The notes under the pieces are model-generated. The model was not told where the DNA came from. It saw only the letters and a list, made by a program, of their open reading frames with translations, and searched no databases. DNA of 21,229 nt, taken from IMG/VR virus record IMGVR_UViG_3300024265_000227, positions 1 through 21,229 of that record, one strand, 5' to 3'. Position 1 is the first letter of the stretch. The number at the start of each line of letters is the position of its first letter. Source of the stretch: a virus. This document shows, one piece after another, positions 4,413 through 18,962 of this stretch. The position numbers and the translations under genes were made by a program.

Positions 4413-4579
4413 TACAAATTAGAATGACAAGAAAGGGATTAGAGGTAGCCAGATATTTCCCATTTATAGTTTTCGGACTTATGTCTGAAGATGGGGGGGT
4501 CAATTCTTTACAGGATTCTCCCAGCCCCCTTATTATTGAGAAGGAGGTAAAACATGGAAACATTAAAAAGAGAAATTAA
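4409..4579 (+). CDS. Possible 56-residue protein overlapping the next gene
   Basis: An ATGA overlap with the gene before gives a 56-codon frame (MIQIRMTRKGLEVARYFPFI...) that runs 26 bases into the next gene, unlike the tight junctions elsewhere. It crosses a run of seven G residues (4493-4499); with one G fewer, the frame would end just before the next ATG, so a length error or programmed slip is possible. The N-terminal half looks protein-like, the second half less so. Without it, 141 bases would be non-coding. Confidence 0.4.
   Translation: MIQIRMTRKGLEVARYFPFIVFGLMSEDGGVNSLQDSPSPLIIEKEVKHGNIKKRN
4493..4529 (+). promoter_or_regulatory. G7/C5 hairpin before the annealing protein gene
   Basis: GGGGGGG (4493-4499) can pair with CCCCC (4525-4529) across a loop of about 25-27 bases, followed by TTATTATT and then the Shine-Dalgarno GGAGGT (4543-4548). 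Such GC tracts are rare in this AT-rich sequence. It could be an attenuator or a translation control element for the gene at 4554. Confidence 0.35.
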
Positions 4580-5141
4580 GGCTGTTTCACTTGGAAGATT
4601 GAAAGATGGATCAATAGGATTCATGACGACAGAAGAAGAAGGTAAATGGTACAATGTCCAAGGCGAATCAGAACAATTAGAGGCAATGGTTAAGGATGTA
4701 GTTGCAAAGGGAAATATTATTGAGTTTCAATACAATAATGGAATTGTAGGAAGTTTGAAATTAGTTGAAAAAGCTCCAGAAAAGAAATCTGAGAATTGGG
4801 CTGACGAAATGAATAACTTTGAAGATTTGCTTGCCGATGCTCATGAGAAGTACAAAGACAAATTGGAAATTCGAACTGAGGTTATGAGAGATGCAGAAGG
4901 AAATGCAATGATTGACTTAGAAAAGAAGTTTGCGTTTTTCAAATGCGAAGTAATTGTTGATGGAAAAACATTTATGGGGCATGGAGATGCAACCAAAGAA
5001 AATGTAACGAGTAATCTAATACAACCACATTTCATAAGAATGGCTGAAACAAGATCAATTGTTAGAGCATTAAGATTCGCAACAAACAATGCAAAAGTTG
5101 CTGTTGAAGAGACTGACGATGTTCCAAAAGAAAAACAATGA
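4554..5141 (+). CDS. Rad52-like single-strand annealing protein candidate with OB-like N-terminus
   Basis: 195 residues, preceded by AAGGAGGT. Residues 5-72 are beta-rich and OB-like (SIGFMTTEEEGKWYNVQGE ... KGNIIEFQYNNGIVGSLKL). Residues 85-185 carry FKCEVIVDGKTFMGHGDATKEN and MAETRSIVRALRFATN (163-178), the A/M-ETR-x-x-x-RALR helix found in Rad52/Sak-type phage annealing proteins. The combination suggests ssDNA binding plus annealing for recombination-dependent replication. It lies beside a ParB-like gene and a small beta protein, a common recombination-module order. Family assignment is by motif; the OB part could be something else. Confidence 0.6.
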   Translation: METLKREIKAVSLGRLKDGSIGFMTTEEEGKWYNVQGESEQLEAMVKDVVAKGNIIEFQYNNGIVGSLKLVEKAPEKKSENWADEMNNFEDLLADAHEKYKDKLEIRTEVMRDAEGNAMIDLEKKFAFFKCEVIVDGKTFMGHGDATKENVTSNLIQPHFIRMAETRSIVRALRFATNNAKVAVEETDDVPKEKQ

Positions 5142-5422
5142 GTTTGATAAATAAGCATTTTGCAATTCTTGGATTCGAAGTTGAGGATAGAGTTACTGGA
5201 TTGAAAGGTATTGTTAGTTCGATAAGTTTTGATTTATACGGATGCATACAAGCAACGATAACTACAAAGGCTGATAAAAATAACGTCAAAGGAACTTGTT
5301 ATTGGCATGACGTTTCAAGAATAAAAATACTTAGCAAAAAACCAGTAATGCAAGTGCCAAATTTTCACTACGGCAAACTAGCCGAGGGGAAAAAAGGACC
5401 TGCAGAAAAGATGACGTTATAG
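5138..5422 (+). CDS. Small beta-barrel-like protein of a phage-widespread family
   Basis: 94 residues with ATGA coupling to the annealing protein. The pattern GFEVEDRVTGLKGIVSSISFDLYGCIQA...W.DVSRI with a C-terminal PVMQVPNF...KGPAEK matches small conserved phage proteins of unknown function that I recognise by pattern (V.D.VTG..G...S...L.GC.Q). An SH3/KOW-like barrel is likely. It is the last gene before the first regulatory cassette. Confidence 0.6.
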   Translation: MSLINKHFAILGFEVEDRVTGLKGIVSSISFDLYGCIQATITTKADKNNVKGTCYWHDVSRIKILSKKPVMQVPNFHYGKLAEGKKGPAEKMTL

Positions 5423-5509
5423 AATAACGAATTTTATTTTTTTATTTTTTTTTAAAAAAACCTGGCGAGGTTAAACGCAAACCTGAACTAAATTCAGGGA
5501 GGTAAAACA
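5423..5509 (+). promoter_or_regulatory. Repeated terminator/promoter cassette, copy 1
   Basis: After the stop codon: a T-rich tract (5431-5453) interrupted by single A residues, ending in TTTTAAAA-type TATA-like sequence, then CCTGGCGAGG (5461-5470; with flanks a 5-bp stem AACCT/AGGTT around GGCG), then TTAAACGCAAAC (5471-5482). The T tract should end the upstream transcript, and the TATA-like element would start a new one about 27 bases on, within the AAACGCAAAC string. The GC-rich palindrome would then lie between TATA and start site, where archaeal repressors commonly bind. Confidence 0.65.
5482..5503 (+). promoter_or_regulatory. Hairpin abutting the Shine-Dalgarno of the ParB-like gene
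   Basis: CCTGAA (5482-5487), loop CTAAA, TTCAGG (5493-5498) is a perfect 6-bp stem whose last two G residues belong to the Shine-Dalgarno GGGAGGT (5497-5503) of the gene starting at 5510. Folding would partly mask the ribosome site. Copies 2 and 3 of the cassette lack this hairpin. Confidence 0.45.
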
Positions 5510-6994
5510 ATGAAGAAAATACAAATAGATGAGATAAAGGTGAAAGAGAATGTCCGAACTGATTACGGTGATTTGACAGAATTGTCTGCATCAGTAAGAG
5601 AACATGGAATTAGAACCCCTATAGAAATAAATTCTGATAATGAATTGATTGATGGGTTCAGACGAGTCAAAGCTGCAAAGGCTGCAGGACTTAAAGAGAT
5701 TCCATATTTTATTAATGAGGAGCAAGTAAATAAAACAGAATCACAAATAATATCTGGATTATTTCAAAAGAACTTGAATCCGATTGAGGAAGGAAAAGCA
5801 TTTCAGATCTATATGGATAAAGAAAACATGACATCGGAACAACTTGCAGTTAGGATTTCGAAAAGAAAAGGTTATGTGGATAAGAGGTTGGAATTAGCAA
5901 AATTACCAATTAAGGTTCAAGAAGCTTTGATAAAAAACAAAATTCAAATGGGTCATGCTTTGTTATTAGCAAAGATGCAAGGAGACGAACGATTGAATTT
6001 TATGAAAGAAATTATTGAGGACGATATGAGTGTTGGTGATGCAAAAGATGATTTAAGTCGTATTAGTAAGAATCTAAATAAAGCCCCATTTTGCAAAAAA
6101 GATTGTAAGAATTGTATTCATAATGGATCCAAACAAACAGAATTATTCGAAACAGGAACAATCCTAAGCGGAGACTGTATGAATAGCAAATGCTTTAACA
6201 GAAAAATGAAAGACTTTATTATTGATAAGAAAGCAGAATTTAAGGATATGTTTTTTGAACGTAAGGATAGATATAATACCAATGAGGATCCATCAGGATA
6301 TGAAGATGCATCAAATACTTGGAATTTGAAGACGCTAGGAATTACAGAAGCCTATATGGTTAAGTGTCGAAAGAACAGAGATTATAAAGTTAGGATTGAT
6401 TCTGATGGACATATTCAAGAATACTTTAAGATTCCGACAAAAAAACCAACGGATGGAGAAGAGGTTAAGGAGGTTCAAGTTGATAAGAAAGAGCAAGGAT
6501 TATTGGCAAAGGTTAGTGAATTCAAAACAGAATTTTTGATGGAAAAAACAAAAGTTATAATGGAACCATCTAAATTCAATACAAAACAACTTGCAGTTAT
6601 TCGAATGATGCAAAGCGCAGGATATTCTGCCTTAGATTCATCAGCTGGAAAATTCAAAGATATTCTGGATATTTATGGAAGTATCAATGTTGAAAAATTA
6701 TTGAAGGCTAGTGATGAATTACTAGATATAGCAATTTATGAACTTTCAAAACATGCACTTCATAAATTAACAGCAAAAGAGTTAGTATTAGTATCAAGAA
6801 ATTTTGGAGTTGATGTTAAAAAAGACTTTAAGATTACTGAGGATTATTTGAAACTTTATACAAAGGATCAACTGAAAGCTTTAGGTAGAGAACTTAAACT
6901 TGAAGGCCCAGAAACTGAACTCAAGAAAGACGAACTCATTTCACATATATTGAAACAAGATTTGAAAGGATTAGTCCCAAAGATTCTACTTTAA
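5510..6994 (+). CDS. ParB-like CTPase/DNA-binding protein with Cys cluster and SAP-like end
   Basis: 494 residues. Residues 1-95 form a ParB/Srx-type domain: VRTDYGDLTELSASVREHG, LIDGFRRVKAAKAAG (GFRR at 49-52 in the GERR position) and FQKNLNPIEEGKAF (85-98) matching the NLQRxxLNPIEE box. Residues 105-135 look like the following helix-turn-helix. Residues 195-228 hold five cysteines (195, 199, 202, 223, 228), probably a zinc site. The C-terminal ~45 residues (YTKDQLKALGRELKL...KKDELISHIL) look SAP-like. ParB proteins bind DNA and switch with CTP; in viruses they serve partition, replication or regulation. Its cassette promoter and masked ribosome site suggest tight control. Confidence 0.75.
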   Translation: MKKIQIDEIKVKENVRTDYGDLTELSASVREHGIRTPIEINSDNELIDGFRRVKAAKAAGLKEIPYFINEEQVNKTESQIISGLFQKNLNPIEEGKAFQIYMDKENMTSEQLAVRISKRKGYVDKRLELAKLPIKVQEALIKNKIQMGHALLLAKMQGDERLNFMKEIIEDDMSVGDAKDDLSRISKNLNKAPFCKKDCKNCIHNGSKQTELFETGTILSGDCMNSKCFNRKMKDFIIDKKAEFKDMFFERKDRYNTNEDPSGYEDASNTWNLKTLGITEAYMVKCRKNRDYKVRIDSDGHIQEYFKIPTKKPTDGEEVKEVQVDKKEQGLLAKVSEFKTEFLMEKTKVIMEPSKFNTKQLAVIRMMQSAGYSALDSSAGKFKDILDIYGSINVEKLLKASDELLDIAIYELSKHALHKLTAKELVLVSRNFGVDVKKDFKITEDYLKLYTKDQLKALGRELKLEGPETELKKDELISHILKQDLKGLVPKILL

Positions 6995-7069
6995 TAAAAC
7001 AAATTTTATTTTTTATTTTTTTATATACCGGGCGCGGTCAAACGCAACTAAACAACCAGGAGGAAAAAC
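6995..7069 (+). promoter_or_regulatory. Repeated terminator/promoter cassette, copy 2
   Basis: T-rich tract 7003-7022 right after the stop, TATA-like TTTATATA (7020-7027), CCGGGCGCGG (7028-7037; 4-bp stem ACCG/CGGT around GGCG), then AAACGCAAC (7040-7048), then Shine-Dalgarno AGGAGG (7058-7063). The third stem pair is G-C here and T-A in copy 1. Confidence 0.65.
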
Positions 7070-7489
7070 ATGAAACAAGAAAACATAATACAATTGAAAG
7101 CTACTAGAACAAACTTAGATGATCTAAAGGTAGAACTTGCAGAAAAAAAACAAGAGTTTGAAGAACAAAATAGTGAATTAATCGAAAAAATCGAAAAGAC
7201 AACATTAGATCTTAATGGATGTATTGATCAAGTAAAAGTATCTGCTATGGAAGAATTCCGTGAAACAGGCGAGAAGAAATTGCTTGGAGGAATTGGAATC
7301 AGAATTTTAACATCATTGAAGTATGATGAGCAAGCTGCAATCGATTGGGCAGATGCAAAAATGCCAGTAGCATTAAAGACTATATTGGATAAGAAGCAAT
7401 TTGAAACTTATGCAAAGAGTACAGATTTAGATTTCGTAAAGAAGGTTGAATCAATATGTGTAACAATACCAAAAGTAATTGAAATCTAA
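7070..7489 (+). CDS. Coiled-coil protein, Gp157-like architecture
   Basis: 139 residues. Residues 1-65 are a long coiled coil (DDLKVELAEKKQEFEEQNSE). The second half contains LLGGIGIRILTSLKYDEQAAIDWADAKM and a DKKQFETYAK helix, a pattern seen in short phage proteins placed beside annealing proteins. A coiled coil followed by a beta hairpin resembles the Siphovirus Gp157 layout, but the match is by shape only. It has its own cassette promoter and a strong AGGAGG site. Confidence 0.5.
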   Translation: MKQENIIQLKATRTNLDDLKVELAEKKQEFEEQNSELIEKIEKTTLDLNGCIDQVKVSAMEEFRETGEKKLLGGIGIRILTSLKYDEQAAIDWADAKMPVALKTILDKKQFETYAKSTDLDFVKKVESICVTIPKVIEI

Positions 7490-7558
7490 ATATCAAACAA
7501 ACTTTATTTTTTTTATTTTTTTTTAAAAAGCCGGGCGCGGAACGCAAACAAAAACAAT
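7490..7558 (+). promoter_or_regulatory. Repeated terminator/promoter cassette, copy 3
   Basis: T-rich tract 7503-7524 after the stop, TTTTAAAA (7521-7528), CCGGGCGCGG (7531-7540), then AACGCAAAC (7541-7549). The ATG at 7559 follows with no Shine-Dalgarno. The expected transcription start (~27 bases from the TATA centre) is near 7551, so this copy would give an almost leaderless mRNA, unlike copies 1 and 2. Confidence 0.65.
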
Positions 7559-7963
7559 ATGACAATAGAAAATATTTCAGAAAATCAAGGGAAATTAGGT
7601 AAGCTAAAGTTAGTTAGCAGAGTTAGAGATTCTTTTACATGCTATCATTGTAAAGATGATATTGCATCTGGCAGTAAGTGTTATGATCAAAGTGATTATA
7701 CTGGGACAGGTTTCTTCCCATCAAAAAGAAGAATGTGTGTTGAGTGTGGGGAAAAGTTTATTGCAGGCGGATTAGAAGTTAAGGAAAAGAAAGTCAAAGC
7801 ACCAAATAAAGAAAAACCCGAGAAGGTTGTTATTAATCCAAAAGACGGCTGCGGAAAAGATACTGAATATCCTAAACCTGATAAAAGTGGGGTTTGGAAG
7901 TGTGGAGAGAAAGCACCGGTCGTTGGTATTATGAATTGTAAAGATTGTGGAGGGTTCAAATGA
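7559..7963 (+). CDS. Double zinc-ribbon protein, unknown
   Basis: 134 residues. The N-terminal half has CYHC (Cys28, Cys31), Cys41 and CVEC (60, 63), spaced like a PARP-type or treble-clef-like zinc site. After a Lys/Pro-rich linker (74-93) the C-terminus has Cys98, Cys115 and CKDC (127, 130), a second likely zinc site. Such proteins usually bind nucleic acid or protein partners. Driven by cassette copy 3 and joined by ATGA to another zinc ribbon. Confidence 0.6.
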   Translation: MTIENISENQGKLGKLKLVSRVRDSFTCYHCKDDIASGSKCYDQSDYTGTGFFPSKRRMCVECGEKFIAGGLEVKEKKVKAPNKEKPEKVVINPKDGCGKDTEYPKPDKSGVWKCGEKAPVVGIMNCKDCGGFK

Positions 7964-9859: not shown

Positions 9860-10057
9860 ATGGTGATATCTAAGAGAAAAAATATTCATGTAAAAACTCT
9901 CAAAAAAGTTGAGGATTTTTTGAAGCAGCAAACAAAACCAATTTTCAAATCTGATATTGTAAAGCAAATTGGAGTCGATTATGATTCTTTGGGAGTTGCT
10001 TTGGATATGTTAGAAATTACTCATTACAAAGATGGGAGGGTTGAGCTTAAATGTTAG
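9860..10057 (+). CDS. Winged-helix DNA-binding protein
   Basis: 65 residues: KTLKKVEDFLKQQTKPIF, then KSDIVKQIGVDYDSLGVALDML as helix-turn-helix, then a wing-like HYKDGRVELK. This is a complete minimal winged helix. It is the first gene of a leaderless transcript and overlaps the next gene by seven bases, suggesting a regulator pair. Confidence 0.6.
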   Translation: MVISKRKNIHVKTLKKVEDFLKQQTKPIFKSDIVKQIGVDYDSLGVALDMLEITHYKDGRVELKC

Positions 10058-10386
10058 AAATAATCAATCAGCGCTACATGAAGTTCTTGTTTAAGATTTC
10101 AAATAAACCGAGAAACATTTCCGAGTTAGCAAAGATTGGTGATTTGACAATAAGTGTTGCTTCGACTTTGATTTCAAGATGGGCAAGAGAAGGCGTAATA
10201 ATAAAACAAAAAACAGAAGGAGCAAAAGAAATCATAATTGTTTTAACTGAATATGGAAAATCACAAGTAGCATTATTGAAATCATTGAATAAAAATCACA
10301 TTAATAAACAGGAGCAATTAAGTAAAGAGGAAGAAGCGGCCGTTTCTCTAGTTGATAATAGTATTGGAAAAGGAGGTGAAAAATGA
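10051..10386 (+). CDS. MarR-like winged-helix regulator
   Basis: 111 residues. Residues 5-75 read as a winged helix: RYMKFLFKISNKPRNISELA, LTISVASTLISRWAREGVI as recognition helix, and a wing KTEGAKEIIIVLTEYGKSQV typical of MarR/ArsR-type folds. The C-terminus is a charged helix. GGGAGG (10034-10039) precedes the start. With the previous gene it is the best candidate in the window for a viral transcription regulator. Confidence 0.65.
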   Translation: MLEIINQRYMKFLFKISNKPRNISELAKIGDLTISVASTLISRWAREGVIIKQKTEGAKEIIIVLTEYGKSQVALLKSLNKNHINKQEQLSKEEEAAVSLVDNSIGKGGEK

Positions 10387-10832: not shown

Positions 10833-10880
10833 TTTTGAAATTATTATTTTATTATTTTATATTTTCAACCAGGAAATACT
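10833..10880 (+). promoter_or_regulatory. T-rich terminator, possible weak promoter
   Basis: The 48-base gap is mostly T and A (TTATTTTATTATTTTATATT), with a TATA-like TTTTATAT near 10854-10861 and AGG (10871-10873) before the ATG at 10881. It resembles the cassette T tracts but lacks the GC hairpin and the AAACGCAA string. Confidence 0.4.
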
Positions 10881-12117: not shown

Positions 12118-12377
12118 TGGCTGAACCTCAAAACCTAGCAAATGCAGCAGTTATAATCGCAGCAGTTTATTTTATGTTCCAATCAGGATTTAATTGGTGG
12201 ATGGCTGCACTTATTTTGTGGGGACTTGCAACATGGGCGCATTGGCATCAAACAGAAGACCAAAAGAAACTAGTAAGATTAGGAATCGAAGAAGTAGAGG
12301 TAAGAACACAAAACATGAAGATGGCAACAGCGGTTGCAACAGCAAATCTAAAAGTAATCATGAGGAACTTGCAATGA
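12117..12377 (+). CDS. Small membrane protein upstream of HerA-like ATPase
   Basis: 86 residues with one long or two short hydrophobic stretches (about 8-40: AVIIAAVYFMFQSGFNWWMA ... LILWGLATWAHW), then a charged amphipathic helix with VEVRTQNMKMATAVATANLK. TAATG start, ATGA end into the HerA-like gene. It could tether the ATPase to the membrane, an inference from coupling only. Confidence 0.6.
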   Translation: MAEPQNLANAAVIIAAVYFMFQSGFNWWMAALILWGLATWAHWHQTEDQKKLVRLGIEEVEVRTQNMKMATAVATANLKVIMRNLQ

Positions 12378-14098
12378 TATTAGGAAAAAATGTTGAAACA
12401 GGCGAGAACGTAGAATTAGATCTTAAAAAATTAATAAGAACTAGACTTCTGATCCAAGCAAATAGTGGCGGCGGCAAGTCCTGGTGTGCTAGAAGAATTA
12501 TGGAACAAACAAGCAAAGATGTTCAACATATAATAATTGATACTGAGGGAGAGTTTTCAACACTTAGGGAAAAATATGATTATTTACTGATTGGATCTGA
12601 TGGAGAGATTCCGGCCACAATCAAAACAGCAGGACTTTTGCCAAAGAAGATAATGCAGATGAAGTTGTCTGTGATTATTGATTTATCTGAGATGAGTAAA
12701 ACAGAAAAATGTAATTATGTGAAGAAATTCCTTGAAGAATTAATAATATTGCCAAGAGAATTATGGACGCCTGTTTTGGTATTTATTGATGAGGCCCATG
12801 ATTTTGCACCGGAGAGCGGAAAGGGAAAGTCAGAGGCAAGACCTGCAGTAATAGGTTTATGCTCAAAAGGAAGAAAGAGAAGATATGGATCAGTTCTAAT
12901 GACACAAAGGGGTGCAAAATTAAACAAAGATGCAACTGCGGAGTGCAATAACAAATTAACAGGCCTTGCAAATATACCAACTGACAGAAAGGTTGCTGCA
13001 GCCGATTTGGGATTCACAACAAAAGAACAGGAAATAAGACTTAGACAATTAGAACCAGGAGAAATGTATGGTTATGGTTCTGCAGTTTCAAAAGAGGTTA
13101 TTAAAATTAAGATAGGACCAGTGTTTACAACTCATGAGGAAGACGAAGATGGAGAAGTTGCAAAGCCAGCAAAGACACCAGATAATATCAAAAAGCTAAT
13201 GAATAAATTTATTGACTTGCCAAAGGAAGCAGAAAAAGAACTTAGGGATATAACTGATTGCAAGAATAAAATAGTAGAGTTGAAACTAGACTTGAGAAAG
13301 GCTTTGAACTCCCAACCCAAACCGGAAGCAGATGAACGAGCACTACAAAGAGCAAGAGATGAAGGATCCAGAGAGATGCAAAAAGTTCTTTCAGATAGGG
13401 AAAGGGAATACAATCAAACATGCAAGGCGTTCCAAAGAGAGATTAAGTACCTTGAAAGAATAATTGAAAATGTTGGAAAGGTTATTGGAGTGAAAGTTAA
13501 TCCTGTTGAGATACCAGAGATGAAACCCCTTCCCCCCCGGACCCCCCCTACCCAAGAAGTGGCTTGTAATGTCCCGCAAGTGTCCCGCAAAATACCAGTA
13601 TTTATTGGTAATAGAGAATTTTCAGATGAAGAACCTAAAACTGCACCGCTTGGATTATGTGGAAGAAATATTTATTCAGTGCTTTATGCTAATTCAACAA
13701 GAGAACTTACAAAAGTTCAATTAGGATTATTATCAGGTTATTCAGTAAAGTCTAGTGGATTCAATAATGCCTTATCACAATTAAACACAATGGGATTATT
13801 AGAAAGAATAAATGGAAAACTGAAAATAAAAGAAGTCAATGCAGAATTCATAAAGGAAGGGTTCGGAGAAATATCAAAAGAGTTGTGGTCCAAAAGTTTG
13901 GGAAAATGCCCCAGAAAGATATTTGAGTTTTTACTAGAGAATGAAATAGAGTTCGAAAAAGAAGAGGTTGCGGAGAGGGTTGGTTATTCAGTAACTTCAA
14001 GCGGATTCAATAATGCACTATCACAACTGAATTCTCTTGGCTTAATCAAAAGGGATAATGGTTTGATTAAAATAAATCCTGAGATTTTGGAGTTGTAA
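12374..14098 (+). CDS. HerA/FtsK-like ATPase with duplicated C-terminal winged helices
   Basis: The frame is open from 12194, but ATG 12374 gives the ATGA junction and the normal family start (MILGKNVETGE), 574 residues. Walker A ANSGGGKS (29-36), Walker B VLVFIDEAHD (134-143), a sensor Gln in SVLMTQRGAK (~178) and conserved GRKRRYG (167-172) mark the HerA/DUF87 pump fold. A coiled coil (~275-380) and a Pro-rich linker lead to two winged helices, about 426-490 and 509-574, which share GYSV(K/T)SSGFNNALSQLN almost exactly. HerA proteins translocate or pack DNA, often with nucleases. As a separate terminase is present, a role in replication, conjugation-like transfer or defence is more likely than head packaging. 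Confidence 0.8.
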   Translation: MILGKNVETGENVELDLKKLIRTRLLIQANSGGGKSWCARRIMEQTSKDVQHIIIDTEGEFSTLREKYDYLLIGSDGEIPATIKTAGLLPKKIMQMKLSVIIDLSEMSKTEKCNYVKKFLEELIILPRELWTPVLVFIDEAHDFAPESGKGKSEARPAVIGLCSKGRKRRYGSVLMTQRGAKLNKDATAECNNKLTGLANIPTDRKVAAADLGFTTKEQEIRLRQLEPGEMYGYGSAVSKEVIKIKIGPVFTTHEEDEDGEVAKPAKTPDNIKKLMNKFIDLPKEAEKELRDITDCKNKIVELKLDLRKALNSQPKPEADERALQRARDEGSREMQKVLSDREREYNQTCKAFQREIKYLERIIENVGKVIGVKVNPVEIPEMKPLPPRTPPTQEVACNVPQVSRKIPVFIGNREFSDEEPKTAPLGLCGRNIYSVLYANSTRELTKVQLGLLSGYSVKSSGFNNALSQLNTMGLLERINGKLKIKEVNAEFIKEGFGEISKELWSKSLGKCPRKIFEFLLENEIEFEKEEVAERVGYSVTSSGFNNALSQLNSLGLIKRDNGLIKINPEILEL

Positions 14099-17441: not shown

Positions 17442-18962
17442 ATGAAAGTAACAAAACAACAAGTAGGTGAACTCTTCGAAAAAGTAAAGGATGAACAAAA
17501 GCTTAAAGAACTTCTCCAAGAAATCTTCTCCCACAAAGAAAACATCCAAACGTTCGGAGAAGTAGTATTTCCCAAAACCGTAATCAACAAAACTCCCAAT
17601 TTCCACTCCGAAATCTACGAATTACTATTTAAGCCAGGAAATGATGCACTGGCCGCACCAAGAGGACATGCTAAAACGTCCGTTACAGGTATAATTTTCT
17701 TGATTTATTGCATAGTTAATGAATTGGAGGAATATATTGTTTACATCTCTCAGAATCATTCTAAAACAGTCCAGTTCATTGACCCTATTAGGTTTGAGTT
17801 TAAGAACAATAAAATGCTACGATTCATTTACGGAGACTTAACGCCGCGCCCAGGCAGAGGTGATGATGGAAAGGATCGTGAGGATTGTTTCGATGTTGGA
17901 GGATGCAGAGTTGAAGCGGTGTCGTTCGAAAAGAATCTGCGAGGTTTCAAATTCCGAAATATACGTCCAACCCTCATAATTGGTGATGATATTGAATCTG
18001 ATGATAGGGTCCTTAATCCAGAGCTTCGAGAGAAAGACCGAAACAAACTAAACAAAGTAATCATCCCCAGCCTGGATATTAACGGCCGCTTTAAGATGAT
18101 TGGAACATTGCTTCACTTGGATTCTCTACTCAACAACAAAATTAAACTATACAAAGGAAAGGTGTTTGCAGCATGCAATTCGGAGTTTAAGGATCTATTA
18201 TGGCCCGAACGGTTTACTGAGGAAAAATTAAGGAAAACTAAACACGACATTGGATCTGTGGCATTTCAACAAGAATATTTGAATAACCCAGTTGACAACT
18301 CGAGCTCACTAATCAAACGAGAATGGATAGAACAATGTTTCAGAAAAGACCTCTCATCTGAAGATGTGTTCAATATGGAATTTAGTGTGAAGACGATGGG
18401 TGCGGACTTTGCCTTTTCTGATAGAGTGTCTGCGGATGAGAGCGCTTACGCCGGGCTAGGCAAGAAGGATGAATTTTATTATTTGCTGAATTGTCAAAAG
18501 GACAAAGGTCTCTCAGTTAATGAACAAATGGATATCATCAAATCGCAACTATTCGAGAAATACCGATATGACAAAATAGGCTTAGAGGAAAACTCCATCA
18601 AGGCCATAAGCAAAGACATTGACCAATGGAAGTTGCCTATCACATTATTTTGGACATCCGCAAACGACCCCGCCGCCCGAAAGAAAGAAGATTACGACTG
18701 GACAAACAAACGTCACACAGTTGGAAAGATTAATCTGATTATGAGGCTCGGAACTGCATTCGAAAATAAAGAGTTCATAATCCCATACAAAACAGAAGCC
18801 GACAAACAAATTGCGGACCGTATTTTAGCAGAGTGCACGTCCTTTGCTTTGTCTGATGGGAAACTTGTTGAAGCCGGAGTTCATCCAGATATTCCAATAG
18901 CACTTGGTTATGCACTTGAATTAATGAACATGGGCGGCGAATCCTCGTGGGCTTTTGTTTAG
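17442..18962 (+). CDS. terL: Terminase large subunit
   Basis: 506 residues, a usual length. ATPase half: Walker A-like APRGHAKTS (72-80) and Walker B TLIIGDDIESDD (177-188; Asp182/Asp183), preceded by YISQNHSKT and followed by the coupling motif GTLLH (221-225). Nuclease half: MGADFAFSD (Asp322), GLEENS (Glu382/383) and HPDIPIALGYAL (Asp483) supply the acidic residues of the RNase H-like headful nuclease. It pumps DNA into the head and cuts it. Parts of the gene (start and 18590-18720) are richer in C-ending codons than neighbours. Ends the packaging transcript before a new promoter. Confidence 0.9.
   Translation: MKVTKQQVGELFEKVKDEQKLKELLQEIFSHKENIQTFGEVVFPKTVINKTPNFHSEIYELLFKPGNDALAAPRGHAKTSVTGIIFLIYCIVNELEEYIVYISQNHSKTVQFIDPIRFEFKNNKMLRFIYGDLTPRPGRGDDGKDREDCFDVGGCRVEAVSFEKNLRGFKFRNIRPTLIIGDDIESDDRVLNPELREKDRNKLNKVIIPSLDINGRFKMIGTLLHLDSLLNNKIKLYKGKVFAACNSEFKDLLWPERFTEEKLRKTKHDIGSVAFQQEYLNNPVDNSSSLIKREWIEQCFRKDLSSEDVFNMEFSVKTMGADFAFSDRVSADESAYAGLGKKDEFYYLLNCQKDKGLSVNEQMDIIKSQLFEKYRYDKIGLEENSIKAISKDIDQWKLPITLFWTSANDPAARKKEDYDWTNKRHTVGKINLIMRLGTAFENKEFIIPYKTEADKQIADRILAECTSFALSDGKLVEAGVHPDIPIALGYALELMNMGGESSWAFV

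Follow-up and report, generated by a model that had tools for sequence, protein, structure and literature searches.

The DNA analysed here, which we call the window, is a viral record of 21,229 bases that holds three copies of an intergenic cassette between positions 5423 and 7558, all on the plus strand. The order of parts is the same in the three gaps: first a T tract, which includes TTTATTTTTT, then the core, then AACGCAA, and finally a start codon. The gaps had been described as 70-90 bases long and measure 87, 75 and 69 nt at copies A, B and C; the cores, CCTGGCGAGG at 5461 and CCGGGCGCGG at 7028 and 7531, lie where the earlier note placed them and carry the tails it gave (AAACGCAAAC, AAACGCAAC and AACGCAAAC). 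At copy A, the T tract (5432-5453), a proposed archaeal-type terminator, follows the stop codon of a 94-aa gene (5138-5422). Stem 1 of its core (5461-5470) extends to AACCT (5459-5463) and AGGTT (5468-5472), and the proposed stem 2 (5465-5478) would join GCG (5465-5467) to CGC (5476-5478), with no variation. A second hairpin (CCTGAA/TTCAGG, 5482-5502), also found in L022/L064, overlaps the Shine-Dalgarno sequence GGGAGG (5497-5502) of the ParB-like gene that follows (5510-6994; domains ParB_N and HTH_ParB), so translation may be controlled there too. Copy B has its T tract at 7004-7022 and its core at 7028-7037, with stem 1 extended by the pair A7027-T7038 and a proposed stem 2 at 7032-7045 (GCG 7032-7034 with CGC 7043-7045); it precedes the gene of a 139-aa coiled-coil-like protein (7070-7489) that has no family match. 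Copy C (T tract 7503-7524, core 7531-7540) has a stem 1 of three pairs and a proposed stem 2 at 7535-7545 (GCG 7535-7537 with CGC 7543-7545), and precedes the gene of a 134-aa cysteine-rich protein (7559-7963), zinc-ribbon-like by eye and equally without a family match.

This repetition is a real feature of the window. The motif CCNGGCGNGG has three exact matches and none elsewhere on either strand, dinucleotide shuffles gave an expectation of 0.02 copies, and none of 100 shuffles reached three. The proposed search for the core followed by AACGCAA returned three forward matches in the window, no reverse match and no control match. The T-tract motif TTTATTTTTT is present at 3/3 sites and has a single further plus-strand occurrence in the window, at 798. 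The core is absent from the fourth T-rich gap (10833-10880), which corrects the earlier note. A different short motif, A[C/T]TAAA[T/C], stands just 5' of the Shine-Dalgarno sequence of numerous genes, whether or not they have a T tract (5487 and 7047 in the window, and leaders of the relatives).

Absence of the motif from the same junctions of related genomes had been named as the outcome that would point to chance similarity. The cassette does occur at corresponding junctions of related viruses, and we regard it as one reused cassette. Pattern scans of viral contigs found five further copies with the same layout in four related contigs, all reading T tract, core, ACGCAA and start codon: one in L004 (10.8 kb), two in G002 (36 kb; L005:2672 on the minus strand, which is L016:11317, and L016:16820, which is L020:1733 on the minus strand), and one each in L021/L065 and L022/L064. 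The eight copies precede six different kinds of gene in all, among them ParB-like genes (window, L021 and L022), an 8094-type gene (L004) and other, unrelated genes. Single-sequence protein searches gave no kin; alignment-based searches did. A recombination protein, the 8094-8501 gene and an HNH gene are common to the window and all four core-bearing relatives. The same three genes are present in L014, L015 and L017, where the exact core is absent, so the element marks one virus group. Downstream of the recombination-protein operon lies a ParB-like gene in the window, L021 and L022, a KIYEEA-type gene in L004 and L015, and another gene in L005. A looser pattern that left the stem arms free gave no additional kin. 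Pattern matches in L013 and L023-L031 were set aside as chance, these being unrelated viruses with no common genes or context, as were seven motif matches in cellular genomes, which are scattered over bacteria and have no common T tract or gene context.

The earlier note described the core as a hairpin in which one stem pair changes from T-A to G-C while the GGCG loop stays fixed. The change is real, and the stem covaries: two pairs of stem 1 differ on both sides, the third from G-C to U-A and the outer one from A-U to U-A, which corresponds to one to two independent events. The idea of a simple hairpin fared less well than stem 1 itself, since the fixed loop is complementary to the AACGCAA tail. 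The GCG within the GGCG loop matches the CGC within the tail, and both loop and tail are likely invariant because these letters pair. If stem 1 and the GCG/CGC pairing coexist, the element is probably a small H-type pseudoknot, judging by its letters: it has a hairpin loop complementary to a 3' tail and workable loop lengths. Over the eight-copy alignment, 100% of the cells of stem 1 and stem 2 are paired, and sliding the partner by 1-3 columns lowers the pairing to 15-46%. The linker from stem 1 to the tail is 3 nt longer only in the window copies at 5461 and 7028 and in L064, and the same three copies have a fourth stem-1 pair in the alignment (A-U, A-U and U-A), as might be expected if a loop crossing a longer stem needs extra length. 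Two observations count against the pseudoknot: with 3+3 bp and loops of 1 and 2 nt it would be near the steric limit, and nested folding of several copies gave weak folds only. Stem 2 of the GGCG family is invariant in 8/8 copies and taken alone has p of about 0.055-0.06 against genome sequence, three complementary letters being expected by chance about 5% of the time. At the gathering score, Rfam returned nothing in the window, and tRNAs only in the relatives.

The same two-stem plan recurs with other letters. At the junction of L015 that corresponds to the L004 core stands ACTCT-UUUGCU-AGAGU followed by GGCAAA, letters unrelated to the core; they form a five-pair hairpin whose loop UUUGC pairs with GCAAA in the tail. 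Between the tail tube gene and that of its assembly chaperone, L014:976 reads UGUC-GAUGGGUA-GACA and then ACCCA, with UGGGU/ACCCA as stem 2. L063:9438 reads UGUUCU-CGCCGA-AGAACA with UCGGC (stem 2 GCCGA/UCGGC), and L058:2186 on the minus strand is a homologous variant of it with stem 2 GCCG/CGGC; both precede a 97-aa gene family that in L060 follows the major capsid gene. The T-tract leader at L060:12085 (minus strand) also has stem-2 complementarity; a nested alternative fold shared with its orthologue L061:9712 counts against it. Besides L015, then, the plan is found in late-gene leaders of three other relatives. Set against 6,000 windows drawn at random from the same genomes, the different-letter leaders rank in the top 0.2% or better, and 6/19 T-tract leaders outside the GGCG family fall in the top 0.35%, against 0.07 expected. 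When stem 1 is kept constant, p for the loop-tail match is 0.002 (L063:9438), 0.005 (L060:12085), 0.008 (L014), 0.013 (L058), 0.024 (L015) and 0.27 (L063:10958), values that are post hoc and of moderate weight because the pattern was noticed in the same leaders. T-tract leaders D, P, R, X and Y gave no loop-tail fold, and I, L, V and Z have different hairpins instead. In the class II leaders (L060:10384 minus, L063:10958, L058:439 minus and L059:3166 minus) a pseudoknot is unsupported and was rejected; these late-gene T-tract leaders have their own two-hairpin design, a long hairpin followed by GTC-NNNN-GAC and GGACTT.

T tracts closely follow stop codons in these genomes, also right behind the genes for the major capsid and the tail tube, and in most leaders the upstream gene stops about 15-35 nt short of where the tract ends. 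Archaeal 3' ends form at U tracts without a hairpin, and at least two U4 runs are associated with high termination efficiency and aCPSF1 binding (PMC8716108). In the cassettes the stop codon is followed by two U4 runs or more, and the suggestion that each copy begins with a U tract able to end the upstream transcript fits this definition of an archaeal terminator. Operon-internal termination is described as common in Methanococcus (PMC10450193). Two other readings of the T tract were rejected. A -1 frameshift signal is contradicted by every examined leader that has an upstream ORF, since this ORF stops before the end of the tract; at the core copies, its stop codon even precedes the start of the tract. 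An intrinsic terminator on the reverse strand would have a hairpin and T run on the minus strand for copy A alone, and there are no convincing minus-strand genes there. The virus is probably an archaeal tailed virus: NucS, HerA-like domains and TATA-type promoters favour an archaeal host, and annotated phage relatives gave no match informative on the host. Were the host bacterial, a T tract placed before a hairpin would not be an intrinsic terminator.

The explanation we prefer, and which we give about an even chance of being right, is that the element is an operon-internal cassette made of an archaeal-type U-tract terminator and a folded 5' leader, acting mainly as RNA. The earlier note had allowed for an operator, an RNA leader or both, and the balance favours the leader. 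As an operator, CCNGGCGNGG would be bound beside a TATA box by a viral winged-helix or ParB-like protein that represses or activates the promoter. The TATA-like stretches reported next to the core do exist in the three window copies, the stem-1 letters form a short inverted repeat, and conserved winged-helix-like genes exist (10051-10386 in the window). However, the TATA-like box is not conserved in the relatives, being weak or absent in L005, L016:16820, L022 and L015. Archaeal RNA starts about 22-27 nt downstream of the centre of the TATA box. In L004 and L005, GGAG occupies positions 20-23 from the first core base and the start codon follows at 28/29. RNA driven by a TATA box at -8 to -1 would then begin at the Shine-Dalgarno sequence, leaving this sequence outside the transcript or at its very 5' end, so it is more likely that the core lies inside the RNA. 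The spacing from core to AACGCAA varies by 3 nt among copies, the conserved GGCG centre is asymmetric and the orientation of the cassette is constant in every copy, which also argues against a simple operator. The ParB-like protein is a poor candidate for the ligand, and a ParB binding site was rejected, since G002, searched whole (L016 and L060), gave no ParB hit yet keeps both cassette copies. Finally, L015 has the same fold with unrelated letters. An operator is unlikely on these grounds, and the core is probably transcribed.

Stem 1 could also be a simple leader hairpin, with AACGCAA an unpaired contact for a protein or the ribosome and the GCG/CGC match due to chance. The invariance of stem 2 in the GGCG family, with its borderline p of about 0.055, and the several T-tract leaders that have hairpins and no loop-tail match speak for this; the recurrence of the match with other letters in L015 and four other leaders speaks against it, and we hold it to be rather unlikely. 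The T tract could instead be a degenerate TATA region of a late promoter, ~25 nt upstream of a start at the core, so that the conserved letters would be promoter or initial-transcribed elements and folding would be incidental. Most copies do have an A-rich and then a T-rich stretch 20-30 nt upstream of the core, the cassette is common to genes of different kinds, and elsewhere these viruses have a promoter that is followed by a conserved downstream element. We think such a promoter quite unlikely, as the promoters that can be clearly recognised in these viruses have the sequence AAGTTTTAWAAAGG, which bears no resemblance to the T tract, and as it leaves unexplained both the stem covariation and the loop-tail complementarity of leaders with different sequences. 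It is compatible with the preferred explanation as to the start of the RNA. A function as exchange linker, in which short homology at the borders of gene modules serves gene swapping between viruses, as proposed for the PeSLs (promoter early stem-loops) of T4, would suit the differences in the gene that follows the same recombination-protein operon. The homology is only about 20-40 nt, though, and L015 has the same fold in replaced sequence, which argues that the fold is kept and not the homology; we consider this function very unlikely, and it is not exclusive of the preferred explanation. That the cassettes are nothing but AT-rich, terminator-bearing gaps in which GC patches arose by accident has a negligible probability. 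T runs are indeed numerous in these AT-rich genomes (mostly 32-36% GC), but chance is refuted by conservation: three exact copies far exceed the shuffled expectation, and five more are found in kin.

Under the preferred explanation of a terminator joined to a folded leader, the U tract after the stop codon would end part of the upstream transcripts, as archaeal U tracts do. Directly after it, stem 1 (CCN/NGG) would close the GGCG loop, whose GCG would pair with the CGC of the A-rich tail to form an H-type pseudoknot with which the 5' leader would begin. Most copies have a Shine-Dalgarno sequence between this fold and the next gene. The 5' end of the leader could be made by transcription starting in the T tract or close to it, or by cleavage at that place. 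Since the fold recurs before unrelated genes, it most likely governs some general property of their transcripts and is not a matter of gene-specific autoregulation; candidates are definition of the 5' end, stability, and access of ribosomes or of one common RNA-binding protein. A more specific version, which we think distinctly unlikely, is that read-through RNA is cut at the U tract by aCPSF1/FttA or a related nuclease and that the pseudoknot just 3' of it blocks 5'-to-3' degradation, so that the downstream message survives; the polymerase may also escape the torpedo. If true, an archaeal DNA virus would be using an exonuclease-resistant RNA to divide a single transcript into stable parts. 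Little work has been done on regulatory RNA in archaeal viruses, and the cassette would offer a concrete, easily testable case of control by leader RNA: since relatives keep the fold and change the letters, the effects of compensatory mutations are sharply predicted by the two-stem model. A small, reused fold behind an archaeal-type terminator could also help to explain how the gene-dense genomes of such viruses divide their transcripts.

Several known systems resemble parts of this arrangement. T4-type PeSLs, as Arbiol et al. are said to have found in 2010, reportedly carry a bacterial early promoter. Like them, the cassette is a short intergenic hairpin element reused before unrelated genes (here eight copies and six kinds of gene) at borders of variable gene content; unlike them, it begins with a T tract, where no sigma-70-type boxes were seen by eye. 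The haloarchaeal tailed virus HGTV-1 has a TATA box-like region and an inverted repeat before its left-side ORFs (PMC3950731), and is thus another archaeal tailed virus with a repeated intergenic motif that is TATA-like and has an inverted repeat. Its BRE/TATA-like boxes lie roughly 30-45 nt before many start codons and there is no long T tract, whereas the cassette copies have no conserved TATA/BRE box at promoter distance; on reading the HGTV-1 intergenic regions, we rejected the two as the same element. The archaeal U-tract terminators of aCPSF1/FttA (PMC8716108) resemble the cassette in having multiple U4 runs (two or more) behind a stop codon and no upstream hairpin; we saw no description of a conserved fold directly 3' of the U tract as a component of them. 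The 5' leader of the gene 32 mRNA in T4 and RB69 contains an H-type pseudoknot (PMC3014915, PMC535899), as the leaders proposed here would, but it serves a single gene by autogenous repression, whereas the fold of the cassette precedes many unrelated genes behind a terminator-like tract.

Other features of these genomes deserve mention. The 375-nt gap before the NucS-like gene of the window contains two long inverted repeats, 2469-2499/2629-2659 (31 nt, 90%) and 2412-2433/2722-2743 (22 nt, 86%), and a TTTATAAAG box at about 2692; it may be an early control region, or a signal for replication or packaging. The HerA-like ATPase (12317-14098) has repeated C-terminal winged-helix-like parts, and no homologue was found in the searched parts of seven relatives. 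The terminase (17442-18962) is 83% identical to that of L063 and 79% to that of L059, against about 35-70% for most other shared genes, which points to mosaic exchange. Archaeal-type promoters resembling AAGTTTTAWAAAGGGAATANNCGTGTATATT were found in L016, L017, L058, L064 and L065, and are joined to a conserved downstream part at L016:8750, L017:5113/6005/9064/11997, L058:8995 (minus strand), L065:5332 and L064:441. In L016 (10001-11096) and L014 (10001-11069), the recombination-protein gene has an HNH gene inserted at its 3' end, and in L016 this insert closes with the conserved RALRFATNNAKV end, present there for the second time. The leader of the recombination protein itself has a G-rich/C-rich hairpin (window ~4490-4540, L016 ~9930-9985, L017 ~9900-9965 and L064 ~1150-1205). 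The two sides of its stem change together from virus to virus, around a conserved GATTC...GATTCTCC, and its CTCC could pair with the Shine-Dalgarno sequence.
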